Made by a program: the position numbers and the translations under genes
The notes under the pieces: model-generated
The model's input: the letters and a program-made list of their open reading frames with translations, nothing else
The model's database searches: none
What the model was told of the DNA's origin: nothing
Part shown: piece by piece, positions 491 to 19,374 of the stretch
Position numbering within the stretch: position 1 is the first letter of the stretch
Layout: each line of letters begins with the position of its first letter
Assembly (NCBI GenBank): GCA_947500415.1
Contig: CANMRT010000002.1
Span: 124,001 to 188,000 of the forward strand
From: an uncultured Roseicyclus sp.
GTDB taxonomy: Bacteria; Pseudomonadota; Alphaproteobacteria; Rhodobacterales; Rhodobacteraceae
Reading direction: 5' to 3'
Length of the DNA stretch: 64,000 bases

Positions 491-502
491 GGGAGCGTGA
501 GG

Positions 503-3228: not shown

Positions 3229-4784
3229 CCATTTTAAGCAGTGGCGATGGGACTGTGGTGGAACGACGACTTGCCCGGGGGCTGAGCCTTATCCTGATCC
3301 CGGCGGTCGGGCTTAGTGCCTGGGCGATGGGAGGGGCGATTTGGCCATTGCTGACCATCGCGAGCGCGCTGGCGGCTGCCGGATGGCTAGCCAATGGTCT
3401 ACAAGGTCGGGCCGAGTCCATACTTCTGGCGCTGGTTTTAGTTGGGCAAGGCATGGCGTTTACTGCCGCCTTCGCAGGCCATCCCTGGCAATTGGACAGT
3501 CATATGCTGTTCTTTGCCCTGCTTGCGATTGTTGCGACGCTGCGTTGCATCGTGGCGTTGCTTACGGGGGCTGCCGCGGTCGCGCTGCACCACCTGGTCC
3601 TCAGCCTAGTGATGCCTGCCCTGATCTTTCCGGTTGCAAACCTGGCCGAGGGGCTTGGCCGGGTCGCCTTTCACGCCTGCATTGTGGTCTTGGAAGTGAC
3701 CTTTCTGGCCGCCATGATCGTGGTCACACAACGTCAGGCGAAAAGCGCACGCAGCGCGCAGGACAAGGCCATCGCGGCAGCTTCCCATGCTGAAAAGGCG
3801 CGCAAACAGGCCGAGAGCCTGCAACATTCTGCAGATGCCGCCAGCAAAGCCTCGCGCGCGATGACGGATGTTCTGGGCCAAAATCTGGAACGTTTGCTGG
3901 CCAGTGATCTGACCGGTCGCATCGGCAGCGCTGCACCTGAGGACTACACGGAATTGGCCAGGACCTATGACGTGGCTGTCGAACATCTGGCAGATGCGCT
4001 GCGCGAGGCGCAGGACATTGTGGTGCGGTTCGAGCTTGAGGCTGGAAACGCTGCCCGGATGACGGATGCCATGGCCCTTCGGTTTGAGCGTCAGGCGCAG
4101 GAAGTCACCGAAACGGCCAATGCCGTCCGGGAATTGACCGCGTCTGTTGGGCAAACCTCAGAGGCGATCATCGATGTTCGCGCGCGGGCCGAAACCGCAA
4201 GCGTCAAGGCCTCGGAAGGGGCCGGGATCGTGCGCGCAGCAGTGGACGCGATGTCCGAGATCCGGTCATCCTCGGGCGAAATCGAAAAGATCATCCATGT
4301 CATTGAGGAGATATCGTTCCAAACCAACCTCCTGGCGCTGAACGCCGGGGTCGAAGCCGCGCGCGCGGGGTCGGCCGGGGCAGGGTTTGCGGTGGTTGCG
4401 ACCGAAGTGCGCGCGCTGGCCCATCGCACGTCTGAAGCGGCCAACCAGGTCAAAGGATTGATCTCCACCAGTGCGTCGAAGGTCACAGAAGGCGTGAACC
4501 TTGTGGACCGCGCGGGTGGAGCGCTGGAAGAGATTGAGGCCGTCGTCGTGAAGGCCAGCGCGCAGGTCAATGACATTGCCCATGAGGCGACATCCCAAAC
4601 CAATGCGCTTCAGGTCATGACGGAGAGCATCGATGTGATTGATGCCGCGATACAAACGTTTGTCAGCCAAACCGAAGAAATATCTGCCAACAACACAAAG
4701 ATTGCAGCGGACGCAGCCGTGCTTGAACGACGGCTGAGCGGCTTTGACCTTAGTAAGACACCGGCACTGGGGAAAGTCGCCTGA
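3225..4784 (+). CDS. Methyl-accepting chemotaxis protein with multi-helix membrane sensor
   Basis: A 519-residue transducer. Residues 15-165 hold about six hydrophobic helices and no periplasmic ligand domain, so sensing is probably membrane-integral. The C-terminal half is a coiled-coil signalling domain with the hairpin-tip motif [20 protein letters not shown], where canonical receptors usually read NAAVEAA, followed by [21 protein letters not shown]. The tip binds CheA/CheW. An ATG at 3225 behind AGGA was chosen over an upstream in-frame ATG at 3189, because it overlaps the preceding stop. No che genes are adjacent; the only other chemotaxis-like gene in the window is the CheB relative at 42776. 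Confidence 0.9.
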
Positions 4785-4793
4785 GCGTTAGTG

Positions 4794-5498
4794 CTAAGTG
4801 CCGCTCGAGTTCGCGCTCAACGCCGCAGACAGCGTTTCGCCCAGGCGCACCATCGCCTCCAATTGATCGGCGGATTTGATCGTGGCCTTGAGGTTGAGCT
4901 GCAGGCCGTCGGGCGAGCGGATGATCGTGGGCATCGCACCTTTGGGCATGGCCTGGCTGGTGTTGGCGAGCGCCTCATGGAAGGCGATTGGCAGGAGGGC
5001 TTCGCGGGCGTCCGGCGTGGCAAGGATGGCACCGGCGGCGCCCACGGCCTCAACGGCATCAAGCTCAGACGCGCGGTCGGCCACGACGCCGAAGAAGGTC
5101 TTGGACATGTGCTGACCAATTACGCCGTCGCCGGTGGCGTTCAGGAACCGCTCCATTTTCGCGGCTTTGTCGTCGGATATCGCAAGGCTCATCACGGCAA
5201 GACCTGAAGGGATGCCAGCGGCGGGGTCCGTCCAGGTGAGAGTGCGTTTGTCGGAAGTGCTCTCAGTCGTGGAGCCATATTGCTCCTCAACAATCCAAGC
5301 GCCGTCGCGTGGCGAGATTTGGGTGATCGTGGTGTAGCCGCTTTCATCCGTGGTCACATCATGCCGCCAGCCGTTCTTCTGCGCGATGGCATGAACGTTC
5401 GCCGCCTTAGCCTTTGATCTGCGCGCGGCGAAGATCATGAACGCCGCACCCGCAAAGCACGCGATGATCAGGATCGGGATCATGATGTTGAAGTCCAT
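4794..5498 (-). CDS. Membrane-anchored hypothetical protein
   Basis: A 234-residue protein with one N-terminal transmembrane helix (about residues 5-25, MIPILIIACFAGAAFMIFAA) and a soluble remainder of mixed composition ending in a serine/alanine-rich tail. I recognise no catalytic motif or named domain. Its stop lies 9 bases from the stop of the convergent chemoreceptor gene. The steady coding character and a clear ATG support a real gene; no function is proposed. Confidence 0.75.
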   Translation of the reverse strand: MDFNIMIPILIIACFAGAAFMIFAARRSKAKAANVHAIAQKNGWRHDVTTDESGYTTITQISPRDGAWIVEEQYGSTTESTSDKRTLTWTDPAAGIPSGLAVMSLAISDDKAAKMERFLNATGDGVIGQHMSKTFFGVVADRASELDAVEAVGAAGAILATPDAREALLPIAFHEALANTSQAMPKGAMPTIIRSPDGLQLNLKATIKSADQLEAMVRLGETLSAALSANSSGT

Positions 5499-6488: not shown

Positions 6489-6547
6489 CCTGTCTCCTTC
6501 ACAAGCGTTAGACGGCGGCGGCTTTCTTGACGGGCCGCGTGCAGGTC

Positions 6548-6564
6548 TTTAGAACGATTCCAAA
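6548..6564. promoter_or_regulatory. ICE-like palindrome (candidate Irr binding site) upstream of iscR-suf
   Basis: TTTAGAA-CGA-TTCCAAA is a 7-3-7 inverted repeat with one mismatch between arms. It resembles the iron control element bound by Irr in alphaproteobacteria (TTTAGAA-N3-TTCTAAA, as I recall it), differing at one base. It lies 115 bases before the iscR start and 60 bases before the divergent hydrolase start. Irr control of the isc-suf operon is known or predicted in rhodobacteria; binding here is inferred. Confidence 0.55.
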
Positions 6565-6678
6565 TTGGGGCGCGCAAAGTGGCGGGCGCCCCGGGGCTGA
6601 TCCGCAGTTAAGCGGGAGGGCCGGAAAGGTCAATCTATCAAGCAGTTTTGCAAGGTAGGATTTCGGGGAGGGCGGCCC

Positions 6679-7137
6679 ATGAAACTGAGCACCAAAGGAC
6701 GTTACGCGATGGTGGCGATGGCCGATCTGGCGTTGCAGCCGAGTGACGCGCTGACGCCGCTGTCGGATTTGTCGAAGCGGCAGGATATTTCACTGCCTTA
6801 TCTGGAGCAGTTGTTCGTGAAGCTCAGGCGCGCGGATCTGGTGGCCTCGGTCCGGGGGCCGGGTGGCGGATATCGCTTAGCGCGCGCGGCGAATGACATC
6901 CGGGTGGTGGAGATTTTCGAGGCGGTGGATGAGACCGTTTCGGCGCTGCACACCGGCGCGGGGGCCTCTGGCGGTGCGTCGGGCAGTCGGGCGCAGAGTC
7001 TGACGAACCGCTTGTGGGAGGGACTCTCCGCCCATGTCTATGTGTTCCTGCATCAGACAAGGCTGTCGGATGTGGTGAAGAACGACCTTGTGCCGTGTCC
7101 GGCGGTGCCGAACTTGTTCGAGTTGGTGGATGAATAG
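6679..7137 (+). CDS. iscR: IscR-type Rrf2 family regulator with a single cysteine
   Basis: A 152-residue Rrf2 regulator, first gene of the iron-sulfur assembly operon. The winged helix is clear: MKLSTKGRYAMVAM at the N-terminus, ISLPYLEQLF recognition helix, VRGPGGGYRLAR wing. The three clustered cysteines that ligate [2Fe-2S] in E. coli IscR are absent; the corresponding loop is glycine/serine-rich (about residues 90-105). The only cysteine is Cys140. Rhodobacteraceae IscR proteins are known for having a single cysteine yet still sensing Fe-S status and repressing iron genes. It probably autoregulates this operon. Confidence 0.92.
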   Translation: MKLSTKGRYAMVAMADLALQPSDALTPLSDLSKRQDISLPYLEQLFVKLRRADLVASVRGPGGGYRLARAANDIRVVEIFEAVDETVSALHTGAGASGGASGSRAQSLTNRLWEGLSAHVYVFLHQTRLSDVVKNDLVPCPAVPNLFELVDE

Positions 7138-7227: not shown

Positions 7228-8268
7228 GTGAGAGACCGGGCCTATCTGGATTGGAATGCGACCGCGCCTTTGCGAGCTGAAGCACGCGCGGCGATGTGCG
7301 CGGCCATGGAGCTGGTTGGCAACCCGTCGTCGGTTCACACCGAGGGCCGCGCGGCCAAGGCGATGATGGAGCGCGCGCGGCGTCAGGTGGCCGAGGCGCT
7401 GGGGGCGCAGGCAGCGGACGTCGTGTTTGTATCGGGCGCCACGGAGGCCGCGGCCTTGGCCATGTCGGGCCGCGATTTGAGTGTTGCGGGCGTGGAGCAT
7501 GATGCGGTGCTGGCCTGGGGGACAGAGGATTTGGCCGTTTCACGGGAGGGTGCTGTGGAGGTGCCGGAGCCCGCGCGCGCCTGTGTGCAAGTGGCGAATT
7601 CCGAAACGGGTGTTTTGCAGGATTTGCCGGACGGGCTGGCGGTGAGTGATTGGACGCAAGGGTTCGGAAAGATCCCGCTGGCCTTCGATTGGTCCGGTGT
7701 GGAGATGGCTTTTGTCTCGGCCCACAAGATTGGCGGGCCCAAGGGTGTGGGCGCGTTGGTGATGAAGCGGGGCCTTGATGTGGAAGCGCGGATCAAGGGC
7801 GGGGGGCAGGAGATGGGCCGCCGCCACGGGACCGAGAACCTGATCGGGATTGCTGGATTTGGGGCCGCGGCCGAGGCCGCAGCGCAAGATTTGGCGGCTG
7901 GCGCCTGGGCCGGGGTTGAGAAACTTAGAAATATTCTAGAAAAGACTCTGGAAGATGCCGCGCAATCGACTATTTTTGTCGGGAAAGGGTCTGACCGCCT
8001 GCCGAACACCTCGATGTTCATCACCGAAGGGTGGAAGGGCGAGACCCAGGTGATGGCGATGGATCTGGCTGGATTTGCTGTCTCGGCAGGCTCGGCGTGC
8101 TCCAGCGGCAAGGTGAAGGCCTCGGGCGTTTTGCGCGCCATGGGATACACGGAGGACCAGGCGGCTTGCGCGTTGCGCGTGTCGCTGGGGCCAGAGAATA
8201 CGGAAGGGCAGGTCATGGCGTTTTGCGACGCATGGCTGGCGGCCCGAGCGAAGAAATTGGCGCGGTGA
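7228..8268 (+). CDS. Cysteine desulfurase, IscS/NifS type
   Basis: A 346-residue PLP enzyme that removes sulfur from cysteine for Fe-S cluster assembly. YLDWNATAPL and GNPSSVHTEGR are typical of the class I (NifS/IscS) group; the PLP lysine is Lys167 in SAHKIGG; the persulfide cysteine is Cys291 in SACSSGK, in the class I longer loop. The start is GTG at 7228. The gene is somewhat shorter than E. coli IscS (404 residues). A second, class II desulfurase (SufS) ends the same operon, so two sulfur donors serve one scaffold. Confidence 0.9.
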   Translation: MRDRAYLDWNATAPLRAEARAAMCAAMELVGNPSSVHTEGRAAKAMMERARRQVAEALGAQAADVVFVSGATEAAALAMSGRDLSVAGVEHDAVLAWGTEDLAVSREGAVEVPEPARACVQVANSETGVLQDLPDGLAVSDWTQGFGKIPLAFDWSGVEMAFVSAHKIGGPKGVGALVMKRGLDVEARIKGGGQEMGRRHGTENLIGIAGFGAAAEAAAQDLAAGAWAGVEKLRNILEKTLEDAAQSTIFVGKGSDRLPNTSMFITEGWKGETQVMAMDLAGFAVSAGSACSSGKVKASGVLRAMGYTEDQAACALRVSLGPENTEGQVMAFCDAWLAARAKKLAR

Positions 8269-8289: not shown

Positions 8290-9807
8290 ATGAGTGCAAT
8301 GGACACCGATGTGGCCGTCAAGGACGGCGTCGATCAGGATACCGTGGATGCCGTCAAGGACCTGGGCGGAAAGTACAAATACGGCTGGAACAACGACGCC
8401 ATCGAGATGGAATACGCGCCCAAGGGCGTGAACGAGGATATCGTCCGGCTCATCTCGGAGAAGAATGGCGAGCCGGAGTGGATGCTGGATTGGCGTCTGC
8501 AGGCGTTCAAGCGCTGGAAGCAGATGCAGGAACCGGAGTGGGCGATGGTCGACTACCCGGCCATCGACTATCAGGACCAGTATTATTACGCGCGCCCCAA
8601 GAGCATGAAGGAGAAGCCGAAGTCGTTGGATGAGGTCGATCCGGAGCTGCTGCGCACCTATGAGAAGCTTGGCATCCCCTTGAAGGAACAGGCGATCTTG
8701 GCGGGTGTTGAGCCTGCGCCGGAAGACCGCAAGGTTGCCGTGGATGCTGTGTTTGACTCCGTTTCCGTTGGCACGACGTTTAAGGCTGAATTGGCGAAGG
8801 CGGGGGTTATCTTCTGCTCGATTTCTGAGGCGATCAAGGACCACCCGGAGCTGGTGAAGAAGTACCTCGGAAGCGTTGTACCGATCACGGACAATTTCTT
8901 TGCGACGTTGAATTCGGCGGTCTTCTCGGATGGGTCCTTCGTTTACATCCCCCCTGGCGTGAAGTGCCCGATGGAGCTGTCCACGTATTTCCGCATCAAC
9001 GCGGAGAATACCGGGCAATTCGAGCGGACGCTGATTATCGCGGATGCGGGATCCTACGTGTCGTACCTCGAGGGCTGCACGGCACCGATGCGGGACACCC
9101 ATCAGCTGCACGCCGCTGTTGTCGAGCTGGTCGCCCATGATGATGCGGAGATCAAGTATTCGACGGTGCAGAATTGGTATCCCGGCGATGAGAACGGCAA
9201 GGGCGGGATCTATAATTTTGTGACCAAACGCGCCGATTGCCGGGGCGACCGCTCCAAGGTGATGTGGACGCAGGTGGAGACAGGTTCTGCCGTCACATGG
9301 AAGTACCCGTCCTGCATCCTGCGCGGCGATGACAGCCAGGGCGAGTTCTACTCCATCGCCATCGCCAACAACATGCAGCAGGCCGATACCGGCACCAAGA
9401 TGGTGCATCTCGGCAAGCGCACGAAGTCCCGGATCGTGTCCAAGGGGATCAGTGCCGGTAAGGCGCAGAATACCTATCGCGGGCTGGTTTCCATGCACGC
9501 GAAGGCGAAGGACAGCCGCAACTACACGCAGTGTGACTCGCTGCTGATCGGCGACAAATGCGGGGCCCATACGGTGCCTTACATCGAGGTGAAGAATAAC
9601 TCGTCTCGGGTGGAGCATGAGGCGACGACGTCGAAGGTCGACGATGACCAGATGTTCTATTGCCAGAGCCGTGGGATGGACGAGGAAGAAGCCGTCGCCC
9701 TGATCGTGAACGGCTTTGCGCGTGAGGTGTTGCAGGCCTTGCCGATGGAGTTTGCGATGGAAGCGCAGCAACTGGTTGCGATTTCGCTGGAAGGGTCCGT
9801 CGGTTAA
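8290..9807 (+). CDS. sufB: Fe-S cluster assembly scaffold protein SufB
   Basis: A 505-residue SufB with the usual length. Typical stretches include [11 protein letters not shown] near the N-terminus, [24 protein letters not shown], and the C-terminal [19 protein letters not shown]. SufB forms the SufBC2D complex on which clusters are built in the cytosol. In most suf operons sufC follows directly; here four other reading frames lie between sufB and sufC (9814-12587). Confidence 0.97.
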
Positions 9808-9813
9808 CCGACC

Positions 9814-10077
9814 ATGCCTGCCGAAGCTGACATTGGGGTTCCCTTGACCGATAGCGACGACATCCAACCCAGATCGCCCCGTCGTCGGGCGTTCGCCATG
9901 GCCGTACTGGCCGTGGCTACCGGTGCGATTGGTATCTCAATGACCGTGGCCGGCGGGTTCTGGGGCTCAGGTGACAGTTCCAACCCGCTGGACCCCACGC
10001 ACTTTGGCGCGGGCACGGCGGACTCGCCCTATTGCAATCGGGATGGCGGATTCAGCCTTTGGCGTCCGGTTTGTTGA
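9814..10077 (+). CDS. Possible small single-pass membrane protein inside the suf operon
   Basis: An 87-residue frame beginning 6 bases after the sufB stop and ending 10 bases before the FkbM methyltransferase start. A basic patch (PRSPRRR) precedes a hydrophobic segment (about residues 28-50, AVLAVATGAIGISMTVAGGF), giving an inside-positive anchor with a short outer tail ending in tryptophan and cysteine. No family is recognised and no strong ribosome binding site is seen. Tight spacing in an operon supports it; the short length keeps confidence moderate. Confidence 0.5.
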   Translation: MPAEADIGVPLTDSDDIQPRSPRRRAFAMAVLAVATGAIGISMTVAGGFWGSGDSSNPLDPTHFGAGTADSPYCNRDGGFSLWRPVC

Positions 10078-10087: not shown

Positions 10088-10987
10088 ATGAGCGTTGGAT
10101 TTCACCCGGATCGCGCGAAGGCGCTGATTGACATTCTGAAGCCCGTGCGGCTGACGCGCGTGGTGGATATTGGCGCGAACCCGCTGGACGAGACGCCCTA
10201 CAAGGGATTGCTGTCGATCGGTGGGTGCGATGTCTGGGGATTTGAGCCGCAGGAGCAGGCTTTTGACCGGTTGATCGCCAACAAGGGACCCCACGAGAAC
10301 TACATTTGTGCGGCTGTGGGCGACGGCAAGACGGCTGAATTGAAGATCTGTGCCGACAGCGGCTACACCTCGCTGCTTGAGCCAAACCCGGCGTACATTG
10401 ACGGCATTGGCCAGGCCAAGGACCGGATGCGGGTGGTTGAGCGGGTCGAGATGAAAACGTCACGCCTTGATAGCCTGAAGGACTTGCCGGATTTCGATCT
10501 TCTCAAAATTGACATCCAAGGCGGCGAGCGGGCGGTGTTCCGGGGCGGGCCGAAAAAGCTGAGCAAAGCGCTGGCTGTGATCACCGAAGTCGCCGCTGTG
10601 CCCCTATACGTGGACCAACCCGTGATGGGCGAACAAATGGTGGAGCTTGGTAAGCATGGCTTCCACCTTCACAAGTTTCTGTTCCTCAAGACTATTGGCT
10701 ATCGCAACCCGTGGTCTGGCCGTTTGAAGCGCGGGCTTTATCGCAGCCAGCTAAGCGATGGCGACGCGGTCATGGTGCGCGGATTGATGGACATCAAAGG
10801 CCTGGAAGACGAGGAGCTGAAGCATCTGGCGATCTTGTGCGACAGCGTTTTGCTGACCCAGGATCTGGGTGTGACGGCGATGGCCGAGCTGATGCATCGC
10901 GGCGTTTTGCCTGAGGCGCGTTTGCATGACTACGTCGACCTGCTGCCCAAGGTATCGCCCCGACCGGTGGAGACGGCTGCGCAATGA
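10088..10987 (+). CDS. FkbM family SAM-dependent methyltransferase (first copy)
   Basis: A 299-residue protein with the Rossmann methyltransferase signature VVDIGANPLDETPY (motif I), the acidic FEPQEQAF loop and LLKIDIQGGE, the hallmark of FkbM methyltransferases. These usually O-methylate sugars or secondary metabolites. The ATG at 10088 follows GAGGGGGGTGAG, a strong ribosome binding site, and was preferred to an in-frame start at 9971 that overlaps the small upstream frame. It overlaps the next methyltransferase by 4 bases (ATGA). Its presence inside a suf operon is unusual. Confidence 0.85.
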   Translation: MSVGFHPDRAKALIDILKPVRLTRVVDIGANPLDETPYKGLLSIGGCDVWGFEPQEQAFDRLIANKGPHENYICAAVGDGKTAELKICADSGYTSLLEPNPAYIDGIGQAKDRMRVVERVEMKTSRLDSLKDLPDFDLLKIDIQGGERAVFRGGPKKLSKALAVITEVAAVPLYVDQPVMGEQMVELGKHGFHLHKFLFLKTIGYRNPWSGRLKRGLYRSQLSDGDAVMVRGLMDIKGLEDEELKHLAILCDSVLLTQDLGVTAMAELMHRGVLPEARLHDYVDLLPKVSPRPVETAAQ

Positions 10988-11784
10988 GTGAGGCCTTGGC
11001 CCATACCGCCCTGGCGAAAGCCGGACGGCTGTTGCGCAAGGGAGATGCGCAGCGCGCGCTTCTGGCCAATGCGGCCGAGGTGCTTGAGGGCTTGCAGCTG
11101 ACCGAGGCGGAGATTGAGGGGCGCGAGGTTACCTTCGCCACCAACATGTTGCGCGACCCGATCCAACGCCGCCATCGCAAGGGCAAGTTCTTTGAACCCG
11201 AAGAATTGCGCCTGATGGCTCGCTACTTGCCCGAAGGCGGAACGTTCGTGGATATCGGGGCGAATGTGGGGAACCACACGATCTACGCCGGGCTGTTTCT
11301 GGCGGCCCGTCGGATCATTCCGATTGAGCCGAACCCATTGGCGTGCCGTTTGTTGATGCTCAACATCGTGCTCAATGGGCTCAGCGATCAGATCGTGTTC
11401 GATCATATCGGTGTGGGTGCTGCGGATGTTGCCTCCGAAGGGTTCGCTATGACCGAGCGGCGCAAAAACCTTGGCGCGTCACGCATGGTCGCGGGGCAGG
11501 GCGATATTCGCACCGTGCGCCCCGATGAAGTGCTGCGCGATGAGACGCCCGATTTCATCAAGATCGACGTCGAAGGCATGGAGATGGACGTGCTGCGCGG
11601 TTTGCAGAAGACCATTCGCCGCTGTCGTCCGGTGCTGTTGGTGGAATGTGATCGCGAGAATATCCACGACTTTGCCGATTGGCGGTTGGCCAATGGGTTC
11701 CAAATCCCCGCGTCGATCAAGCATTACGCGGAGAACCGGAATTTCCTTTTGGTGCCGGAAGAACGTGCGGAGGAGTTCGCATGA
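10984..11784 (+). CDS. FkbM family SAM-dependent methyltransferase (second copy)
   Basis: A 266-residue FkbM enzyme: FVDIGANVGNHTIYAG (SAM-binding motif I, canonical form with GNHT), IEPNPLACRLL and FIKIDVEGMEMDVLRGL. An N-terminal helical extension of about 75 residues (KGKFFEPEELRLMARYL before the Rossmann core) may bind the acceptor. It is coupled to its neighbours by 4-base ATGA overlaps at both ends. It is divergent enough from the preceding FkbM gene that the pair need not be a recent duplication. The acceptor is unknown; a polysaccharide is likely given the next gene. Confidence 0.88.
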   Translation: MSEALAHTALAKAGRLLRKGDAQRALLANAAEVLEGLQLTEAEIEGREVTFATNMLRDPIQRRHRKGKFFEPEELRLMARYLPEGGTFVDIGANVGNHTIYAGLFLAARRIIPIEPNPLACRLLMLNIVLNGLSDQIVFDHIGVGAADVASEGFAMTERRKNLGASRMVAGQGDIRTVRPDEVLRDETPDFIKIDVEGMEMDVLRGLQKTIRRCRPVLLVECDRENIHDFADWRLANGFQIPASIKHYAENRNFLLVPEERAEEFA

Positions 11785-12587
11785 GTGCTCCGTTGCGTCT
11801 TTATTATTGGCCCGCGCCGAATTTTGGTGACGCACTGAGCCACTTGATTGTCGAGCATGTTTCCGGCCGGAAGGTGGAGCAGGTGCGCCCGAAACAGGCG
11901 GAGCTGTTCGCGTTGGGTTCGCTGATGCATGTAATCTCCAAGCATTGGACAGATCACGCGCGGGGCGAGGGGCCAATCCTGTGGGGGACCGGGCTGCTGA
12001 ACCCATTCTACCGCAAGGATTTCCTTGAGAATGTGCGTGTGCGGCTGTTACGCGGGCCGGTCTCGGCGGCGTTTCTGCGGTTGAAGATGACGGAGTTCGG
12101 GGACCCCGGCCTGCTGACCGATGATGTGATCCCGCCCTTGGGCGAACGCCAGGATCGCATCGCCATCCTGCCCCATCACAGCCAGATGGAAGACCCGCGG
12201 TTCGTGGACATGGTGGAGGGCGACCCGGCACTGCATCTGATTGACGTGCGGCTGGACCCGGTGACGGTCTGCCGTGAGATTGCGGCCTCCCGCCACGTGT
12301 TCTCGGCCAGCCTGCACGGGCTGATCGTGGCCGATGCTTACGGCATTCCGAATACCTGGATGGACCCCGACAAACAGGGCCGTCTGAAGTACCACGACTA
12401 CGCCGCGTCGATCGGGCGCGACATGATCTATCCCGTTGAAATCGAAGATGTTCCCGCCGCCGCACGCCACGTGCGCGACCGGGAATTGCCCTATGCTGAA
12501 GGGATCGCGCGTTGCCGCGAGAGCCTTCTGCGCCATTTCCCGGCAGAGCTGCGCGCTGCCCAACCTGATGAGGTATCCCATGCTTGA
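11781..12587 (+). CDS. Polysaccharide pyruvyl transferase family protein
   Basis: A 268-residue protein of the pyruvyl transferase (CsaB/GumL-like) group. MSAPLRLYYWPAPNFGDAL gives the characteristic N-terminal NFGDAL motif; ILWGTGLL, RLLRGPVSAAFL and SASLHGLIVADAYGIP are further family marks, the last being the GT-B-like C-terminal substrate site. Members add ketal pyruvate from PEP to sugars of exopolysaccharides or cell-wall polymers. It overlaps the preceding FkbM gene by 4 bases and sufC by 8 bases, so it is an integral part of the operon. Confidence 0.85.
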   Translation: MSAPLRLYYWPAPNFGDALSHLIVEHVSGRKVEQVRPKQAELFALGSLMHVISKHWTDHARGEGPILWGTGLLNPFYRKDFLENVRVRLLRGPVSAAFLRLKMTEFGDPGLLTDDVIPPLGERQDRIAILPHHSQMEDPRFVDMVEGDPALHLIDVRLDPVTVCREIAASRHVFSASLHGLIVADAYGIPNTWMDPDKQGRLKYHDYAASIGRDMIYPVEIEDVPAAARHVRDRELPYAEGIARCRESLLRHFPAELRAAQPDEVSHA

Positions 12588-13335
12588 GATCAAAGGCCTG
12601 GCCGTCAAACTGGAAGAAGAAGACAAGCAGATCCTGAAAGGTGTCGACCTGTCGGTTGAGGCCGGCAAGGTGCACGCGATCATGGGGCCGAATGGCTCGG
12701 GCAAATCGACGCTGTCCTACGTGCTCTCGGGCCGCGATGGCTATGAGGTGACCGGCGGCTCTGCCTCGCTGGAAGGTGAAGACCTGCTGGAGATGGACCC
12801 CGAAGAGCGCGCGGCGGCGGGCCTGTTTCTGGCGTTCCAGTATCCGGTTGAGATCCCCGGCGTCGGCAACATGACCTTCCTGCGCACGGCGCTGAACGCG
12901 CAACGCAAGGCACGCGGCGAGGAAGAGATGAGCGCGGGCGATTTCCTGAAGCTGATCCGCGCCAAGGCGAAGGACCTGAAGATCGACGCCGACATGCTGA
13001 AGCGGCCTGTGAATGTGGGCTTCTCGGGTGGTGAGAAAAAGCGGAACGAGATCCTGCAGATGGCGATGCTTGAGCCGAAGATGTGCATCCTGGATGAGAC
13101 GGACTCAGGGCTGGACGTCGACGCGATGAAGCTGGTGTCCGAGGGCGTGAATGCGCTGCGCAGCGAGGGGCGCGGGTTCCTTGTTATCACCCACTATCAG
13201 CGCCTGCTGGACCACATCAAACCCGATGTCGTGCATATCATGGCAGACGGTCGCATCGTGAAAACAGGTGGCCCTGAGCTTGCCCTTGAGGTCGAGAAGA
13301 ACGGCTATGCCGACATTCTGGCGGAGGTGGCGTAA
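12580..13335 (+). CDS. sufC: Fe-S cluster assembly ATPase SufC
   Basis: A 251-residue ABC-type ATPase. Walker A is GPNGSGKST; the signature region is NVGFSGGEKKRNEI, specific to SufC; Walker B is MCILDETDSGLD; the H-loop is VITHYQR. SufC powers conformational change of SufBC2D. The ATG at 12580, reading MLEIKGLAVKL, was chosen over an in-frame start at 12436 because family members start here. It overlaps the pyruvyl transferase gene by 8 bases and its TAA overlaps the sufD ATG. Confidence 0.97.
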   Translation: MLEIKGLAVKLEEEDKQILKGVDLSVEAGKVHAIMGPNGSGKSTLSYVLSGRDGYEVTGGSASLEGEDLLEMDPEERAAAGLFLAFQYPVEIPGVGNMTFLRTALNAQRKARGEEEMSAGDFLKLIRAKAKDLKIDADMLKRPVNVGFSGGEKKRNEILQMAMLEPKMCILDETDSGLDVDAMKLVSEGVNALRSEGRGFLVITHYQRLLDHIKPDVVHIMADGRIVKTGGPELALEVEKNGYADILAEVA

Positions 13336-14636
13336 TGGCGGCTCCTGCTGCGAAGATGGATCTGACCGAGGCGCGGATTGCCACGCTGTCGATGCCGGAA
13401 GGGGCGGCTTGGGCGACTGACGCGCGCAACGCCGCCTTGGCTCGCGTGCGCGAGATGGGCTTGCCCACGCGCCGCGACGAATACTGGCGCTACACCGATC
13501 CCGCGACACTGACGCAGGCGAGTGCGCCGCGTGCCGCGATCTTTGATGACCGCGACGAGCCGCCGGTTTTCGGCGACATCGACAAGCTGAACATTGTGTT
13601 TGTCGATGGTGTCTTCTCGCCCGAGAAATCCGATCCGCTTGAAATGGCGGGGCTGGAGATTGAGCGGTTGTCGGATGTGCTGAGCACGGACATCCATTGG
13701 GCCAAGGACCTCTACGGTGTGCGGGAAACGGCGGGTCAGGACCCCGTGGCGCGTCCGCTCGCGGCGCTGAACACAGCCTTTGCCACCGATGGCGTGGTGA
13801 TCCGCGCAACCGGCAAGGCAGAGCGGCCCGTGTGCTTCATCTACCTGCACCGCGATGAGACTTCGGACGCGACGCTGCATCATTTGGTGAAGGTCGAGAC
13901 CGGGGCTGAAGTGACGATCCTGGAAATCGGACCGGCTGCCGCGCGCTTCAACAAATGCATGGAAATCGACGTGGCCGATGGCGCGGCGTTTCACCATGTG
14001 CGTGCCCAGGGCCGGGACCATGAACGCCGGGCAGCGACCCATATGTTTGCGCGCGTCGGTGCCGATGCGCTTTACAAAAGCTTCACACTGACAGCCAACG
14101 GTGTGATGACGCGCAACGAGCATGTCATTGAAATCGTGGGTGATAATGCTTCCGCCCATGTGGCGGGTGCGGCCCTTGGCGATGGTGCCAGTGCGCCATT
14201 CCATCACGACGATACCGTGTTCATCACCCATGATGCACTGAATGGCGAAAGCCGGCAGGTCTACAAGAAAGTGCTGCGTAACGGGGCTGAGGGCGTGTTT
14301 CAGGGCAAGATTCTAGTCAAGGAAGGCGCTCAGAAAACCGATGGCTATCAGATCAGCCAATCGCTGTTGCTGGACGAAGATTCGAGCTTTCAGGCCAAAC
14401 CCGAGCTTGAGATCTACGCCGACGACGTGGCCTGTTCCCATGGCTCCACCACCGGTGCAATTGACGAAGAGGCGTTGTTCTACCTCCGCTCACGCGGGGT
14501 GCCGACAGAGATTGCAACGGACCTGCTGGTCATCGCGTTTCTGGCCGAAGCCATCGACGAGATCGAAAGCGAGGCGCTGCGCGAGGACATTATCGCGCGG
14601 TTGATGCATTGGCTGGAGCGGCGCAGGCAGGGCTGA
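13335..14636 (+). CDS. sufD: Fe-S cluster assembly protein SufD
   Basis: A 433-residue partner of SufB and SufC. The C-terminal beta-helix region carries YQISQSLLLDEDSSFQAKPE and CSHGSTTGAIDEEALFYLRS, typical of SufD and including the conserved CSHG. The N-terminal part RRDEYWRYTDP is also typical. Its start overlaps the sufC stop (TAATG), so it is translationally coupled. Confidence 0.96.
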   Translation: MAAPAAKMDLTEARIATLSMPEGAAWATDARNAALARVREMGLPTRRDEYWRYTDPATLTQASAPRAAIFDDRDEPPVFGDIDKLNIVFVDGVFSPEKSDPLEMAGLEIERLSDVLSTDIHWAKDLYGVRETAGQDPVARPLAALNTAFATDGVVIRATGKAERPVCFIYLHRDETSDATLHHLVKVETGAEVTILEIGPAAARFNKCMEIDVADGAAFHHVRAQGRDHERRAATHMFARVGADALYKSFTLTANGVMTRNEHVIEIVGDNASAHVAGAALGDGASAPFHHDDTVFITHDALNGESRQVYKKVLRNGAEGVFQGKILVKEGAQKTDGYQISQSLLLDEDSSFQAKPELEIYADDVACSHGSTTGAIDEEALFYLRSRGVPTEIATDLLVIAFLAEAIDEIESEALREDIIARLMHWLERRRQG

Positions 14637-14641: not shown

Positions 14642-15214
14642 ATGGCATTGGTCAACGATATCGTACGCTCCTACAGGCGTCCGCGCCCCGTCTTCGGCGG
14701 GTTGCTGGCGCGTGGGGCGGACGACAAGACCGGCCTTGTTTTTCTGCTTTTGGCGATGGCGTTGGGGTTCGTGTCGCAATTGCCGGGCGTCTCACGCCGG
14801 GCCAATACACCGGACCCGGAATTGGACGCCGCGATCATTGCCGAGCGCGATGACGTGCGCCCGATCGAAGGCGTTGAGGTGCCCGAAGGTCTGGTGGACG
14901 CGAAGTTTCAGGCACTCATGTCAGCCGAAATCATGGTGTGGTTCCTGATCTTGCCGCTGGTCTTCTACGGTGTCGCCATGTTGGGCCATCTGGCCATGCG
15001 CGCCTTTGGGCGCAAGCCCGACACCACAGCCTCGCGCCTTGCGCTGTTCTGGGCCTTGGTGGTGGCAGCACCTTTGAAGCTGCTGCACGGGTTGGTTCTG
15101 GGCATGATCGGGCCAGGGTCATCGTTAACGCTGGTGGGCTTCATCTGGTTCGCGGTGTTGATGTGGAACTGGACGGCAAACTTGCGTGTCGCAGGGGCGG
15201 AGGCGGCAACATGA
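14642..15214 (+). CDS. Yip1-like integral membrane protein (first)
   Basis: A 190-residue protein with about four hydrophobic segments (residues 31-47, 95-117, 132-152 and 158-178). The organisation resembles Yip1-domain proteins, as does the following gene, with which it overlaps by 4 bases (ATGA at 15211). A soluble loop of about 45 residues (TPDPELDAAIIAERDD) separates the first and second helices. The ATG at 14642, 5 bases after the sufD stop, was chosen over an in-frame ATG at 14609 inside sufD. Its function in the suf operon is unknown. Confidence 0.75.
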   Translation: MALVNDIVRSYRRPRPVFGGLLARGADDKTGLVFLLLAMALGFVSQLPGVSRRANTPDPELDAAIIAERDDVRPIEGVEVPEGLVDAKFQALMSAEIMVWFLILPLVFYGVAMLGHLAMRAFGRKPDTTASRLALFWALVVAAPLKLLHGLVLGMIGPGSSLTLVGFIWFAVLMWNWTANLRVAGAEAAT

Positions 15215-15810
15215 GAGACCTTCTGAACCTGCCTTACCTGCTGACCCTCGCGCGGCAGACGGTTTCGGATCCAAGGACAGGGGCCGAGGAGATCCTGGCC
15301 CTGAACCTTCCGCGCGCGGCCCTGTGGCTGGCGTTTGCGTTGATGGTCGTCCTTTCGATGATCTTGGGCGAGTTGGTGGCGCTGGTGCTTGGCCAGCCTG
15401 AGGAAGGCCCGCTGACCGGGCAGACGCCGCTGGTCCTGGGCCTGATGCAGGGCGCGCTGCTGTTCCTCGCGGTCCACGCGATCACCCATATCGGGCGCAT
15501 TTTCGGCGGCACTGGCAGTTTCGACGGTGCGCTGGCGCTGGTCACATGGCTGCAATTCATCTTCCTGATCCTACAGGCCATCCAATTGGCGTTGGCGTTG
15601 GTTGTTCCGCCCTTGGCCGTCGTTGTCTCGCTTCTCGCGATTGCGCTTTTCTTCTGGCTGTTGAGCCACTTCATTACCGTGCTGCACGGTTTCGCCTCGG
15701 TCGGGCAGGTCTTTCTCATGACCCTGCTCAGCTTCGTTGGCATCATCTTTACCCTCAGCCTTGTCCTGACGCTTCTTGGACTTGGCCTTCCCACGGGAAC
15801 CCCGACATGA
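15211..15810 (+). CDS. Yip1-like integral membrane protein (second)
   Basis: A 199-residue protein with a short amphipathic N-terminus (LLNLPYLLTLARQTVSDPR) and about five hydrophobic helices, the arrangement of Yip1-family bacterial proteins. The N-terminal amphipathic segment DPRTGAEEIL is the conserved entry region in this family. It overlaps the gene before it and sufS after it by 4 bases each. Its role is unknown; conserved placement between sufD and sufS would hint at a membrane link for Fe-S assembly or metal/sulfur transport, but that is inference. Confidence 0.78.
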   Translation: MRDLLNLPYLLTLARQTVSDPRTGAEEILALNLPRAALWLAFALMVVLSMILGELVALVLGQPEEGPLTGQTPLVLGLMQGALLFLAVHAITHIGRIFGGTGSFDGALALVTWLQFIFLILQAIQLALALVVPPLAVVVSLLAIALFFWLLSHFITVLHGFASVGQVFLMTLLSFVGIIFTLSLVLTLLGLGLPTGTPT

Positions 15811-17030
15811 GCTACGATGTGAACGCGATCCGCGCCGATTTCCCGATCCTGTCGCGCGAGGTGAATGGCAAACCCTTGGTCTACCTCGACAACGGTGCCT
15901 CGGCCCAGAAGCCTCAAGTGGTGATCGACGCGATCACTCAGGCTCATTCGATGGAATACGCCAATGTGCACAGGGGCCTGCATTACCTCAGCAATCTTGC
16001 GACTGAGAAATATGAGGGCGTGCGAGGCACCATCGCACGGTTCCTGGGCGCGGCGGATGAGGAAGAGATCGTTTTTACCTCCGGCACGACCGAGGGCATC
16101 AATCTGGTCGCCTACGGATGGGCCATGCCGCGTATGGAGGCGGGGGACGAAATCATACTAACCATCGCCGAGCACCACGCCAATATCGTGCCCTGGCATT
16201 TCCTGCGCGAACGGCAAGGGGTGAAGCTGGTTTGGGTGGATGTGGACGCCAATGGCGATCTGGACCCGCAGGCGGTGATCGACGCGATGGGGCCGAAGAC
16301 CAAGCTGGTGGCAATGGCGCATATGTCGAACGTGCTGGGGACGGTCTTTGACGTGAAGGCTGTGGTTGAGGCGGCGCACGCGCGTGGGATAGCCGTGCTG
16401 GTCGACGGTTCTCAATCGGCGGTGCACATGCCGGTGGACGTGGATGACCTCGGCGCGGATTTCTACGCGATTACGGGGCACAAGCTTTATGGCCCCAGCG
16501 GATCCGGAGCGATCCATATCCGAAAAGAGCGCATGGCCGAGATGCGGCCCTTCTTGGGCGGCGGCGACATGATCCGCGAGGTGCATCGTGACGAGATCAC
16601 CTGGAACGACCCGCCGATGAAGTTTGAGGCGGGGACGCCCGGGATCGTGCAACAGATCGGCCTTGGCGTGGCGCTGGAGTATATGATGGGCGTGGGGATG
16701 GACGCGATTGCGGCCCATGAGGCGGACCTTGCGGCCTATGCCACGAGCCGCCTCAATGGGCTAAACTGGCTGAACGTGCAGGGGAAATCGACGACAAAGG
16801 GCGCGATTTTCAGCTTCACGCTGGAAGGGGCCGCCCATGCCCACGACATCTCAACCGTGCTCGACAAGAAGGGCGTCGCGGTTCGGGCCGGACACCACTG
16901 CGCGCAGCCTCTGATGGAGCACATGGGGGTGAACGCCACCGCGCGCGCCAGCTTTGGCATGTACAACACGCGGGCCGAGGTGGATGTGCTAGTCGAGGCG
17001 TTGGAACTTTGCCACGAGCTGTTCGCCTGA
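15807..17030 (+). CDS. sufS: Cysteine desulfurase SufS (class II)
   Basis: A 407-residue class II desulfurase. YLDNGASAQKP, VHRGLHYLS, EHHANIVPW and the PLP lysine Lys226 in ITGHKLYGPSG are SufS/CsdA marks; the catalytic cysteine is Cys365 in RAGHHCAQP. It is the last gene of the operon: a hairpin follows, then a convergent peroxidase gene. No sufE, sufA or sufT is found downstream within the window, so the sulfur-acceptor and carrier proteins must be encoded elsewhere or replaced. The start at 15807 overlaps the preceding stop (ATGA). Confidence 0.95.
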   Translation: MSYDVNAIRADFPILSREVNGKPLVYLDNGASAQKPQVVIDAITQAHSMEYANVHRGLHYLSNLATEKYEGVRGTIARFLGAADEEEIVFTSGTTEGINLVAYGWAMPRMEAGDEIILTIAEHHANIVPWHFLRERQGVKLVWVDVDANGDLDPQAVIDAMGPKTKLVAMAHMSNVLGTVFDVKAVVEAAHARGIAVLVDGSQSAVHMPVDVDDLGADFYAITGHKLYGPSGSGAIHIRKERMAEMRPFLGGGDMIREVHRDEITWNDPPMKFEAGTPGIVQQIGLGVALEYMMGVGMDAIAAHEADLAAYATSRLNGLNWLNVQGKSTTKGAIFSFTLEGAAHAHDISTVLDKKGVAVRAGHHCAQPLMEHMGVNATARASFGMYNTRAEVDVLVEALELCHELFA

Positions 17031-17080: not shown

Positions 17081-18574
17081 TCAGGCGCTGGGGCCACACC
17101 AAAGCGCCTCTTTCTGGGGCAGCGCATCGCGGTTGGCTTCGACGAAAGCCATCATGTTTGCCATGGTTGCGAAATCAGGTAGCGGTTGGAAGCCATCGAT
17201 ATGGACGTAGCTTTCCGGGTCGCACCGCAAGAGTCGCGCGATGACTGAGGCCACGATTGTGCCGCCGACCTTGTCCAGCTTGCCGCCGGCATTGTCCGCC
17301 TCTTCCAGGCAATAGAACCACAGCGGCGTCTTTGCGATGTGGTGATCGGCCAATGTCTGGGGCACCGGAAGCGGTGTGTGCCCCAGAAGGCCCGCAAGGC
17401 GTTGTCCGTTGGGCAGATGCAGGGCGAACCTGTCACGCAGGATGTTGCGAAGGGGCAGTTTCTTGGCCTGGGTTGCGTTCACTGGCGTGCCGTCGGGCAT
17501 TGTGAAGCCGTCCGTCACAAACGGCAGTTCGAACAAAGACGCGGCCACGCTGGTGCCGACGGGCCGTGCCTTTTGAGCGCTGGGGCCGAAGAATTCACCC
17601 ATTTCGATATCGTGGCTGTCATCGCGTGGCTCGAAACCCTGTTTGGCAAAGAACAACTGCTCCGGCCCGCCCGATTTCAGGCGGTATCCGTCCTGTGCAG
17701 TTGCGTGGCCGAACCGATAGGCCGCACCCGAAAACTCCACCGGCATGATCGGAGCATCGGCGCCGAAGGGGTCCGTGGCCATGCAGTCGTCGATGATCGA
17801 CTGCACCACAACTTGCGGCAGGAAATCGGTGATCGTGATGAATTGGTAGTGCAGTCGGATGAAGCGGCGGACGATTTCGAAATCGCTCATCGGTGGCAAG
17901 ACCTGATCGCTCCAGACATCGTCGGACGTGCCTTCCATAGCCTTGGATTTCACAGTCTGTCCCAAAGGCGTATTTGCGATCACCTCGTTCAACAGGATGT
18001 TGTGAAGGCAAATAAATCCGCCCTGAACCTGGCTGACGAAGATGTTCTCGTCGTTGCGCGGATCTCCGATCAGGGCCGTGCCCTTACAATTGCGGGCAAG
18101 GTCCAGCGGGCTGTCGGCGCGTCCGAACAGAAGAAAGCCTTCGTGGTGCTTTCCGGTTGTATCTGTCCACCCGGTATAGAGATGCGGGCTGGCCTCAGGC
18201 CCGTCGCCATAGACGCAATCGAGGTCGAGATTTGGGGTGCGAATGTTGCGAATGTTGCGCGGGTCGGCGACGGTTCCGATGGCCGAACTGGCATCCAGCG
18301 TCACATCGTGATCGAGGAACTGGCCGAAGAACGTCATGCCCGCATCGGCCGGGCCTTCCAGCCTGTCGTTCACCAGCATATCGGCCACAAGCGCGTCGAA
18401 GATGGCGATAAGATCGGCTTTGTTCCCGCTCCAAATCAAGGGGTTCGCGGGGGCCAGGCGCCCGAAGAATTCGGGCAGGACAGAGGTGGCATGGGTATCG
18501 TTGAGGGCATGGCCGTCGAGGCACGCTTTGGTAAAGCGGTCCAACCGACCCAGCCCATGATGAATATGGGACAT
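17081..18574 (-). CDS. Animal-type haem peroxidase
   Basis: A 497-residue protein of the peroxidase-cyclooxygenase superfamily. The distal histidine is His89 in FGQFLDHDVT; Arg173 in DPRNDEN is the likely catalytic arginine; the proximal haem ligand is His290 in YRFGHA. No signal peptide is visible from the chosen start, although bacterial members are often exported by non-classical routes. The ATG at 18572-18574 behind GGAG was preferred to an in-frame upstream ATG giving a 41-residue cysteine-rich extension. Such enzymes make hypohalous acids or oxidise organic substrates with H2O2. It is monocistronic. Confidence 0.87.
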   Translation of the reverse strand: MSHIHHGLGRLDRFTKACLDGHALNDTHATSVLPEFFGRLAPANPLIWSGNKADLIAIFDALVADMLVNDRLEGPADAGMTFFGQFLDHDVTLDASSAIGTVADPRNIRNIRTPNLDLDCVYGDGPEASPHLYTGWTDTTGKHHEGFLLFGRADSPLDLARNCKGTALIGDPRNDENIFVSQVQGGFICLHNILLNEVIANTPLGQTVKSKAMEGTSDDVWSDQVLPPMSDFEIVRRFIRLHYQFITITDFLPQVVVQSIIDDCMATDPFGADAPIMPVEFSGAAYRFGHATAQDGYRLKSGGPEQLFFAKQGFEPRDDSHDIEMGEFFGPSAQKARPVGTSVAASLFELPFVTDGFTMPDGTPVNATQAKKLPLRNILRDRFALHLPNGQRLAGLLGHTPLPVPQTLADHHIAKTPLWFYCLEEADNAGGKLDKVGGTIVASVIARLLRCDPESYVHIDGFQPLPDFATMANMMAFVEANRDALPQKEALWCGPSA

Positions 18575-18756
18575 GGAAAATCTCCGAAAGTATACAAAAG
18601 GGGCCTGCCGGCAGCGCAGAACACACGCGCAGCTCCGCTGCAGGGTCTTCAATGTCGTAAAGCAATAATGCGAAACGCTTATACGTTGTTCGCGCAATAA
18701 TGGTTAACGGAGACCGTTGGGCTGCAAGTTGTGCGGGTATCCGCCGACCGTGCCGT

Positions 18757-19374
18757 TCAGGCGTCTGGCGTAATCAGCCCCAGACCGCGCAGGTAGATGC
18801 CGATGCCAGCCTCCAGCAAGTCTTCGGGCGGGAAGGGGGCGTTGGCTCCGGGACGACCACGCGCGAAGAGTTCGACCACGCCGTGGCTCATGGCCCAGAT
18901 GTGGGCGGAGAACATCGAAGGGGGCGGGCGCTTTTCGGGGGGGATGTGAGCCGAGAGCGCCTCGGCTGCGCGTTCCAGAACGTCGCGGGATTTGTTGGCA
19001 GCTGCGGCCAGTTCGGGTGTGGCGTTGGCGGAGGTGCCGGATTCAAACATTGCCATGTAGTGGCCGGGAAACTTGCGCGCGAAGGCAAGGTAGGCGCGGC
19101 CTGTAGCCTCGAACGCGGCAAGCGCCGTTGGCTGGCCGCTGTTGTAGGCGTGGTCCATCAGATCGGCGAAAATCTCATGCCCCTGACGCGCGCATTCCGC
19201 GATCAGGTCTTCGCGGCCTTCGAAGTGCCGGTAGACGGCTGCGGGGGTCACGCCCGCATTCTTGGCCGCCTCCGACAGGGTAAAACCGGTCGGGCCCTTC
19301 GCCTCGATCAGGCGCAGGGCGGCGTCAACAAGCGCCTGCTTGAGGTTGCCGTGATGGTAGCCGCGTTTGGGCAT
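18757..19374 (-). CDS. TetR/AcrR family transcriptional regulator
   Basis: A 205-residue TetR-like regulator. The DNA-binding domain (residues 8-55) reads NLKQALVDAALRLIEAKG, then FTLSEAAKNAGVTPAAVYRH, the usual TetR helix-turn-helix; a WHG-type C-terminal domain follows. The start ATG at 19372-19374 overlaps the stop of the PPK2 gene (TAATG), so it is the second gene of a two-gene unit. An upstream in-frame start would run back through ppk2 and was rejected. The ligand is unknown. Confidence 0.88.
   Translation of the reverse strand: MPKRGYHHGNLKQALVDAALRLIEAKGPTGFTLSEAAKNAGVTPAAVYRHFEGREDLIAECARQGHEIFADLMDHAYNSGQPTALAAFEATGRAYLAFARKFPGHYMAMFESGTSANATPELAAAANKSRDVLERAAEALSAHIPPEKRPPPSMFSAHIWAMSHGVVELFARGRPGANAPFPPEDLLEAGIGIYLRGLGLITPDA

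Follow-up and report, generated by a model that had tools for sequence, protein, structure and literature searches.

Why should genes of glycan type lie inside an operon for Fe-S cluster assembly? In the window, the 64,000-nucleotide stretch of contig CANMRT010000002.1 (uncultured Roseicyclus sp.) analysed here, two FkbM-family methyltransferase genes (F1 and F2) and a pyruvyl-transferase-like gene (PT) stand between sufB and sufC, as a sequence-only reading had noted and as direct reading and Pfam confirm. We considered whether this block is real, how it compares with the same position in related genomes, and what its presence there might mean. The features of the operon are as follows.

6519-6678, + strand: upstream region of iscR, containing TTCTTGACG, TTTAGAACGATTCCAAA and AAAGGTCAA
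6524-6532, + strand: TTCTTGACG, upstream of iscR
6548-6564, + strand: TTTAGAACGATTCCAAA, Irr-box-like, upstream of iscR
6627-6635, + strand: AAAGGTCAA, upstream of iscR
6679-7137, + strand: iscR-type Rrf2 regulator (NCBIfam TIGR00738 above cut-off; TIGR02010 IscR under its cut-off)
7228-8268, + strand: iscS-type cysteine desulfurase (NCBIfam, under equivalog cut-offs)
8290-9807, + strand: sufB (NCBIfam SufB equivalogs above cut-off)
9814-10077, + strand: small ORF of 87 aa, first passenger, between sufB and F1; relatives in three congeners
10088-10987, + strand: F1, FkbM-family methyltransferase, 299 aa (PF05050, 56.5 bits)
10984-11784, + strand: F2, FkbM-family methyltransferase, 266 aa (PF05050, 67.1 bits; TIGR01444 above cut-off)
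11781-12587, + strand: PT, pyruvyl-transferase-like protein, 268 aa (PF04230, 31.5 bits)
12580-13335, + strand: sufC (NCBIfam TIGR01978 above cut-off; own Shine-Dalgarno-like GAGG)
13335-14636, + strand: sufD (PF01458)
14642-15214, + strand: Yip1-like membrane protein 1 (PF04893, 28.3 bits, barely under the cut-off of 28.6)
15211-15810, + strand: Yip1-like membrane protein 2 (PF04893, 50.1 bits)
15807-17030, + strand: sufS (NCBIfam TIGR01979 above cut-off)

The block is intact and recurs in congeners

F1 and F2 exceed the PF05050 cut-off of 22.7 bits, which places both in the FkbM family, and PT exceeds the PF04230 cut-off of 25.3. The tight packing described earlier is present as well, with ATGA overlaps at 10984 (F1/F2) and 11781 (F2/PT) and an 8-base overlap of PT with sufC (ATGCTTGA, 12580-12587). 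All three frames are intact and evolve under purifying selection, with dN/dS between 0.04 and 0.14 in the three congener pairs computed. The block was found again, in the same order and place and with F1, F2 and PT called as open genes, at congener loci L038, L040, L044, L047, L048 and L049; this recurrence rules out a misassembly or the oddity of a single genome with broken frames. The 87-aa ORF that precedes F1 has no Pfam or NCBIfam match, and its relatives in the three congeners share 81, 67 and 59% identity with it; by eye it has one hydrophobic stretch. A scan of genome contigs with F1 found one near relative.

Variation is concentrated between sufB and sufC

In 109 genera of Rhodobacteraceae, between 26 and 3182 bp separate sufB from sufC, with a standard deviation (SD) of 766; the SD is 5 for the sufC-sufD gap, 24 for iscS-sufB, 101 for iscR-iscS (n=108) and 124 for sufD-sufS (n=105). 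These genera are the ones found among the best 150 for both sufB (of 281) and sufC (of 286), out of 295 searched, and the sample therefore leans to conserved suf genes. G157, with sufB and sufC on different contigs, was left out, and the rates exclude 12 congeners and the 29 loci that were fetched through F1, F2 or PT matches. In other families of the class the sufB-sufC gap has a median of 38.5 bp and exceeds 600 bp in 2 of 78 genomes. That survey took in 133 genomes, 84 with each gene. G000 and G210 were excluded as members of the window's own family, G363, G375 and G404 because sufB and sufC are on different contigs, and G353 and G373 for having just one of the two genes; an additional sufB piece in G358 and an additional suf copy in G384 (gap 20) were also set aside. 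The longest sufB-sufC gap seen was 3893 bp. These measurements show that the variable slot is limited to the sufB-sufC gap and, in our sample, nearly to Rhodobacteraceae, and its changing content within conserved flanks is that of a variable cassette.

Called slot genes, at most 7 to a slot, form 57 arrangements in the 109 genera, and 258 of the 259 share the strand of the operon. Their families comprise YbjQ/UPF0145, FkbM, PT, a methyltransferase-like family (MTx, PDB 3cvo) and small membrane proteins, together with cupin, DMT_6, GFA, another methyltransferase and many small proteins without a Pfam match. MTx is among the commonest slot enzyme families (27 of 109 genera) and matches the solved chain PDB 3cvo, 'Methyltransferase-like protein of unknown function', at E 9.2e-92; a search at E 1e-20 found no match to it in the genome that contains the window. 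A gene called as FkbM, PT or MTx occurs in 49 of the 109 genera, so glycan genes are not what the slot mainly holds. The slot families scanned, among which many small membrane proteins have no assignment, include no polymerase, flippase or export gene such as a dedicated polysaccharide locus would have. The codon-based gene caller misses some genes (PT was recovered afterwards in L090 and L178, and 20 uncovered stretches longer than 300 bp were counted in 19 of 150 loci), so that all per-family counts are lower bounds.

The sequence-only reading took the overlap with sufC to mean that SufC translation depends on the block, which was not borne out. A Shine-Dalgarno-like (SD-like) motif, GAGG in the window, stands at the right distance before sufC in 102 of 109 genera (about 17% for random sufB positions), the last passenger overlaps sufC in 2 of the 101 genera with a called passenger, and the passenger set differs from genus to genus while sufC is constant. 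Since sufC has an SD-like motif of its own, obligatory translational coupling is rejected as stated.

Slot loyalty, phylogeny and exchange

Relatives of the block genes are found mostly in the slot. F1 is located there in 29 of 42 genera having a homologue, F2 in 34 of 45 (the F2 of G272 had no placement), and close PT homologues in all 14 genera, a count that leaves aside five weak PT matches (G017, G040, G089, G107 and G265). The MTx search covered 213 genera and gave 45 matches at E up to 1.8e-43. Of these, 33 could be placed and 32 are in the slot; the other 12 have no known suf position, and 18 weaker places stand outside the tally.

The distribution of F1 and F2 on the core tree looks random, with 16 changes for 18 presences of F1 (16.9 when shuffled) and 14 changes for 16 presences of F2 (15.2 when shuffled). 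PT presence has a weak core-tree signal (7 of 200 shuffles were as low), and the presence of MTx and YbjQ retains such a signal. Supported splits conflict with the core tree in 11 of 17 cases for F1, 7 of 14 for F2, 1 of 7 for MTx and 0 of 3 for PT, whose patristic correlation with the core tree is 0.83. The Yip1-like proteins 1 and 2, which served as control genes, conflict in 11 of 17 and 7 of 17 supported splits over 104 taxa; on the F1 taxa alone, protein 1 has one conflict among 3 supported splits and protein 2 none in its single supported split. Since the F1 and F2 conflicts are not above these controls, the gene trees do not show excess transfer, and we dropped the argument that they prove horizontal transfer. 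On the F1 tree, slot rows group together (7 changes against 13.9 shuffled), and the well-supported branches of this quick tree force at least three changes between slot and elsewhere.

Exchange is visible in one congener pair, WIN-L038. Fourfold differences there number about 53 of 273 for F1 and F2 together and 386 of 940 for five core genes (p 1.8e-11, with the counts worked back from rounded rates), and third-position identity, 0.81 for F1 and 0.84 for F2, is the highest of the homologous called genes in 20 kb, the next being 0.75. This shows that in this pair the F1-F2 segment is younger than its flanks and was exchanged more recently. Of 78 congener pairs, most of them near saturation, this is the one that carries the low-divergence signal; recombination in the flanks has one positive pair in its favour beside gene trees at control level. 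All 13 genomes of the genus, the window's own included, have a GTA_TIM match; gene-transfer-agent particles carry about 4 kb of DNA.

Putative functions of the passengers

The F1 alignment has nearly invariant D27, G29 and A30, and that of F2 invariant D90, G92, N94 and G96, residues compatible with a SAM-binding loop in each. PT carries NFGD and SLHGL motifs that are invariant in 22 rows, and PF04230 matches all 22 aligned slot members (E 0.01); neither an NCBIfam model match nor a convincing sequence relative in the PDB was found for it. Outside the slot, F1 has FkbM-GT2 fusions, GT2 genes or FkbM genes as neighbours in 5 of the 9 cases tested (the neighbours in the other 4 lack a Pfam match), and in L160 MTx is fused to a GT2 domain. 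This genomic context hints at a glycan role. As named by eye, the F1 relatives elsewhere form small modules beside housekeeping-looking genes. F1 and F2 match a single PHROGs methyltransferase family of unknown role. An anti-phage system was considered and rejected, PADLOC giving only a weak match of F2 to mad2 (E 0.0011).

Regulation of the operon

Letters upstream of iscR in the window are putative Irr and IscR boxes. Of 148 upstream regions, 62 contain the 9-mer TTCTTGACG and 52 the 9-mer AAGGTCAAT, against 4 for the top shuffled 9-mer; the Irr-box-like TTTAGAACGATTCCAAA is merely similar to the recurring ACCTTAGAA. Both kinds of box are placed upstream of iscR in the part of a published account drawn on here, which also has E. 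coli IscR controlling the surface structures fim and flu (PMC6956336). Within the block, promoter- and terminator-like counts are not above those of shuffled sequence, and Rfam has no match in the window other than a tRNA at 46305-46391; an internal promoter, terminator or RNA element was rejected on these grounds.

The slot gene of R. sphaeroides, RSP_0439, offers a guide to expression. In the portions of the accounts used here it is co-transcribed with sufB, and its expression changes along with sufB and sufC (PMC4618611, PMC4176601, PMC3413700), with lower or negative values under some conditions. By analogy, the block enzymes are likely to be produced whenever the iron-stress operon is active.

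An explanation for the block

We think it probable, if by no means assured, that the block is what currently occupies a variable passenger slot, maintained by Rhodobacteraceae within an otherwise rigid isc-suf operon, and that it encodes suf-coexpressed surface-glycan enzymes subject to flank-mediated turnover. Passengers would be transcribed together with suf and would consequently increase when iron is limiting and under oxidative stress, like the slot gene of R. sphaeroides. F1, F2 and PT, as predicted methyl- and pyruvyl- (or related) transferases, may jointly decorate a cell-surface glycan. Modules would enter, leave and swap through homologous recombination within sufB and sufC, the conserved flanks, and ordinary gene loss would contribute to turnover, with a mobile element playing no part. 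The earlier reading had offered a surface polymer made under iron stress and cargo using the operon as alternatives; this explanation merges the two and leaves both open.

It is unlikely, though a serious contender, that the sufB-sufC junction is simply a permissive niche, tolerant of insertions, whose hitchhikers gain steady expression with no tie to iron or oxidative stress. The heterogeneous passengers in their many arrangements, and the F1 relatives beside housekeeping-looking genes elsewhere, would suit such a niche; however, the loyalty of subfamilies, complete for PT, and the rarity of the slot outside the family exceed what tolerance alone would give, unless vertical descent explains both. 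Descent is the basis of a marginally less likely account, in which an early set of F1, F2, PT and MTx was lost in most lineages, with little exchange. The near absence of PT and MTx conflicts with the core tree, the core-tree signal in MTx and YbjQ presence and the grouping of slot rows on the F1 tree are all consistent with it, but the random-looking presence of F1 and F2, the gene order that varies between slots, the younger F1-F2 segment in WIN-L038 and the changes between slot and elsewhere on the F1 tree are not.

Operon position and tight packing could also point to a direct role in building Fe-S clusters, or in the modification of SufB, SufC or some other Fe-S protein. We consider this very improbable: an FkbM gene was not found in 80 of 109 slots and PT not in 99, yet the suf genes are kept throughout, and the block families are glycan-type. 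Least credible of all is recent foreign cargo delivered by a mobile element. Patchy distribution would fit, but mean slot GC lies within about 1 to 2 points of its neighbours, which disfavours recent foreign DNA, and F1, F2 and PT are under purifying selection. Neither integrase nor transposase was found among slot genes of at least 100 aa, with at least one member per cluster scanned and two opposite-strand calls outside the scan, and the window's block contains only short imperfect repeats, unlike an integrative-element hotspot.

Relation to known systems and significance

Capsule and O-antigen loci have housekeeping flanks and variable glycan-type content, and are exchanged by flank homology. 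The slot resembles them in its variable content within conserved flanks and its glycan-type enzymes, but differs in its small size of at most seven called genes, in the lack of polymerase and flippase in the scanned families, in having glycan-type genes in only 49 of 109 genera and in being embedded in a core stress operon. Muricauda belongs to a different phylum from Rhodobacteraceae. A published precedent from that genus is momL, which like the block occupies the sufB-sufC gap in the orientation of the suf genes; it is a single gene, encoding an AHL lactonase, and the part of the report used here calls its location unique and shows no survey across relatives. Closer at hand, RSP_0439 of R. 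sphaeroides and a small ORF of C. crescentus are non-suf genes located between sufB and sufC and carried by the suf transcript, in accounts whose relevant parts do not describe the scale of the slot, its families or its restriction to one gap (PMC6956336, PMC4618611, PMC11475020). Our search of the open-access literature found no description of a family-wide sufB-sufC slot in Rhodobacteraceae, and did not find FkbM tied to the suf operon or to Rhodobacterales.

A core operon would be expected to be closed to cargo. Here the sufB-sufC junction is open family-wide, in an operon whose sufC-sufD gap has an SD of only 5 bp, and the slot is a natural system in which to study how cells add stress-regulated functions by operon borrowing. 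It also places families of unknown function, namely the PDB 3cvo family, YbjQ/UPF0145 and the PF04230 subfamily, in a likely regulated context, and gives a concrete way to probe whether surface glycans of Rhodobacteraceae are linked to iron status. A more speculative thought, which we hold to be rather unlikely, is that the slot is a stress-inducible surface-variation locus, with short glycan modules swapped through their homologous flanks between strains, possibly in gene-transfer-agent particles, whose DNA load is close in size to the longest gap, and expressed only when stress turns on suf. If this were true, the cell would alter its surface exactly under iron or oxidative stress.

Architecture of the block

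The sequence-only reading placed two FkbM-family methyltransferases (F1 and F2) and a pyruvyl-transferase-like protein (PT, PF04230) between sufB and sufC, and rereading of the coordinates confirms the arrangement exactly to the base, with ATGA overlaps at 10984 (F1/F2) and 11781 (F2/PT) and an 8-base overlap between PT and sufC.

Features of the block, by window position
8290-9807, sufB, from reading of the sequence
9814-10077, ORF of 87 aa upstream of F1, with relatives in three congeners
10088-10987, F1, above the FkbM-family cut-off in Pfam
10984-11784, F2, above the FkbM-family cut-off in Pfam
11781-12587, PT, over the Pfam cut-off of polysaccharide pyruvyl transferases
12580-13335, sufC, from reading of the sequence

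The sufB-sufC junction is open in Rhodobacteraceae

The same reading proposed a survey of suf operons for the block. When the operon was measured in 109 genera of Rhodobacteraceae, the block generalised into a variable slot between sufB and sufC, with a median gap of 1189 bp (range 26 to 3182, SD 766). The median gap is 27 bp between iscS and sufB (SD 24), 2 between sufC and sufD (SD 5), 70.5 between iscR and iscS (SD 101, 108 genera) and 1076 between sufD and sufS (SD 124, 105 genera), where two Yip1-like genes are the usual content (exactly two called genes longer than 120 aa in 104 of 150 loci). Thus, judged by the standard deviations, sufB-sufC is the only open junction of the five, with the other four nearly fixed. 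Outside the family, in 78 genomes from as many other families of Alphaproteobacteria, the median sufB-sufC gap is 38.5 bp, and only two genomes exceed 600 bp.

We found no prior description of the slot as such in the open-access papers searched. A single small ORF between sufB and sufC is reported for Caulobacter crescentus (PMC11475020), and section 3.1 of Nie et al. (PMC6956336) mentions that ORFs lacking annotation vary somewhat in Rhodobacteraceae. The slot resembles variable cassettes between fixed flanks; unlike the usual ones, it lies inside a core stress operon and its content is loyal to the site.

Slot content and its loyalty to the site

In the 109 slots, a codon-based caller predicted 259 genes, and 258 of these lie on the operon strand; run with different settings on 150 loci, it predicted 397, five of them on the opposite strand. 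The slots hold YbjQ/UPF0145 (PF01906; 69/109), a family of roughly 175-aa membrane proteins (31), FkbM (29), the methyltransferase-like family MTx (27) and PT (10, nine from the caller plus locus L090), and eight lack any called gene. There are 57 arrangements with minor families pooled and 72 unpooled. MTx has a PDB match (E 9.2e-92) in 3cvo, which is titled 'methyltransferase-like protein of unknown function'. A further 28 operon-strand genes of at least 100 aa fall outside the five largest clusters; 21 were scanned, and the other seven are cluster-mates of these. They include a cupin, DMT_6, GFA, another type of methyltransferase and a fusion of GT2 to MTx; most of the rest have no Pfam match, and no integrase or transposase was among the 28. 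In the slot of L178 (gap 1525 bp) the caller missed PT and recovered just the C-terminal 42 aa of MTx, where its genome (G038) has a near-full match without stops. The start was therefore miscalled, and slot gene counts are lower bounds.

F1 homologues (E 1e-20) occur in 42 of 295 genera, 29 of them in the slot; F2 homologues (E 1e-20) occur in 45 genera, 34 in the slot, 10 elsewhere (position taken from the locus, contig or coordinate) and one unplaced. PT has homologues (E 1e-15) in 21 genera, and all 14 at 43% identity or higher lie in the slot; two of the seven weak matches were fetched (L186 and L187), and their stretches lack sufB. For MTx, 45 places at E ≤1.8e-43 (213 genera) divide into 32 in the slot, one elsewhere and 12 unplaced. 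Among 13 genomes of the genus, the slot holds an F2-type gene (60% identity or above) in all 13, PT in 11 and F1 in seven, six of these at 60% identity or more.

One stop falls within the matched stretch in the F2 copies of genomes G084, G155, G158, G177 and G247, the PT copy of G212 and the F1 copies of G117 and G189; some of these may be decaying genes, or matches overrunning the end. Within the genus, ten genomes match both parts of the GTA_TIM model and three (G000, G301, G304) only its C-terminal part; the three may carry a different GTA-like gene.

Turnover and probable exchange

We compared presence changes on a core tree built from SufB, SufC, SufD and SufS with 200 shuffles. The 18 presences of F1 require 16 changes (mean of the shuffles 16.9, 56/200 as low) and the 16 of F2 require 14 (15.2, 41/200); both genes are thus gained or lost as fast as genera diverge, their location nonetheless constant. 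A tree signal, weak to clear, is retained for PT (8 changes for 10 presences; 9.6, 7/200), MTx (18 for 27; 24.1, 0/200) and YbjQ (23 for 69; 32.5, 0/200). Gene-tree conflict with the core tree was not greater than in the Yip1-like controls. Mean GC is 0.596 in the 95 slots longer than 400 bp; sufB (0.580), sufC (0.587) and the Yip1 region (0.616) differ from this slightly but significantly.

On a quick tree of F1, slot and outside positions alternate with seven changes (shuffled, 13.9), at least three of them forced by well-supported branches. The slot F1 of L173 clusters with outside-slot copies, and its partner shares 33% identity across 188 residues with the F1 partner in L171, outside the slot, as though a module had shifted between sites.

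F1 is 97% identical to its copy in the congener locus L031. Against this congener genome (L031/L038), third-position identity is 0.81 for F1 and 0.84 for F2, and 0.545-0.690 for ten other measured genes of the operon region. The best other gene in the 20-kb stretch reaches 0.75, so F1 and F2 stand out, though the background is not zero. The high-identity segment declines gradually on the F1 side and ends sharply at the F2/PT junction, from 0.96 to 0.62 between neighbouring 50-codon blocks. Fourfold-site differences, in counts reconstructed from rounded rates, are about 53/273 for F1 plus F2 against 386/940 for five core genes (p 1.8e-11), and F1 plus F2 also differ from PT (p 7e-4). General synonymous constraint is ruled out as the cause, since this is the only one of 78 pairs flagged for low divergence. 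The similarity points directly to exchange, in this one case.

Two stretches of the window have no counterpart at that place in L031: about 2838-4837, upstream of the operon, with a called gene at 3504-4784, and about 17088-18837, where an animal-haem-peroxidase-like gene (PF03098; 17081-18697, minus strand) lies immediately downstream of sufS.

Expression and translation

Upstream of iscR, a set of 9-mers recurs among 148 loci (TTCTTGACG in 62, ACCTTAGAA in 54, AAGGTCAAT in 52; top shuffled 9-mer, 4), and the window has TTCTTGACG and AAGGTCAAT exactly and ACCTTAGAA as a variant. No prominent internal promoter or terminator was seen in the block. In R. sphaeroides, RT-PCR is reported to amplify the sufB-RSP_0439 junction, and in an iscR mutant RSP_0439 shifts like sufB and sufC (log2 0.67, 0.67 and 0.68; PMC4618611). 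It is also described as clustering with both genes, induced when iron is depleted in the presence of oxygen and repressed when oxygen is absent, the first table column giving 1.49 against 2.60 and 1.75 for sufB and sufC (PMC4176601); parallel values for RSP_0439 and the suf genes appear in PMC3413700. By analogy, the window's block likely behaves like RSP_0439.

The interpretation first put on the block holds in part. It had made SufC translation dependent on the block, which is not required: sufC has an SD-like motif of its own in 102/109 genera, so independence from the passenger is possible.

Possible action on glycans

Among the 13 loci with F1 outside the slot, we scanned nine neighbours of the gene. 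FkbM-GT2 fusions account for two (L161, L168) and GT2-bearing genes for two more (L175, L177); the neighbour in L164 is a further FkbM gene, and no Pfam match was obtained for the remaining four (L163, L169, L171, L172). Inside the slot, L160 has a GT2 domain fused to an MTx domain. Judged from sequence, these neighbours and the fusion favour action on glycans.

In L161, L164, L168, L175 and L177, F1-type genes and their glycosyltransferase or FkbM partners form small modules beside housekeeping-looking genes, the module in L177 adjoining rpoC- and rpsL-like genes (named by eye, as are the other housekeeping neighbours). Scattered glycan modules of small size may be a general feature of Rhodobacteraceae.
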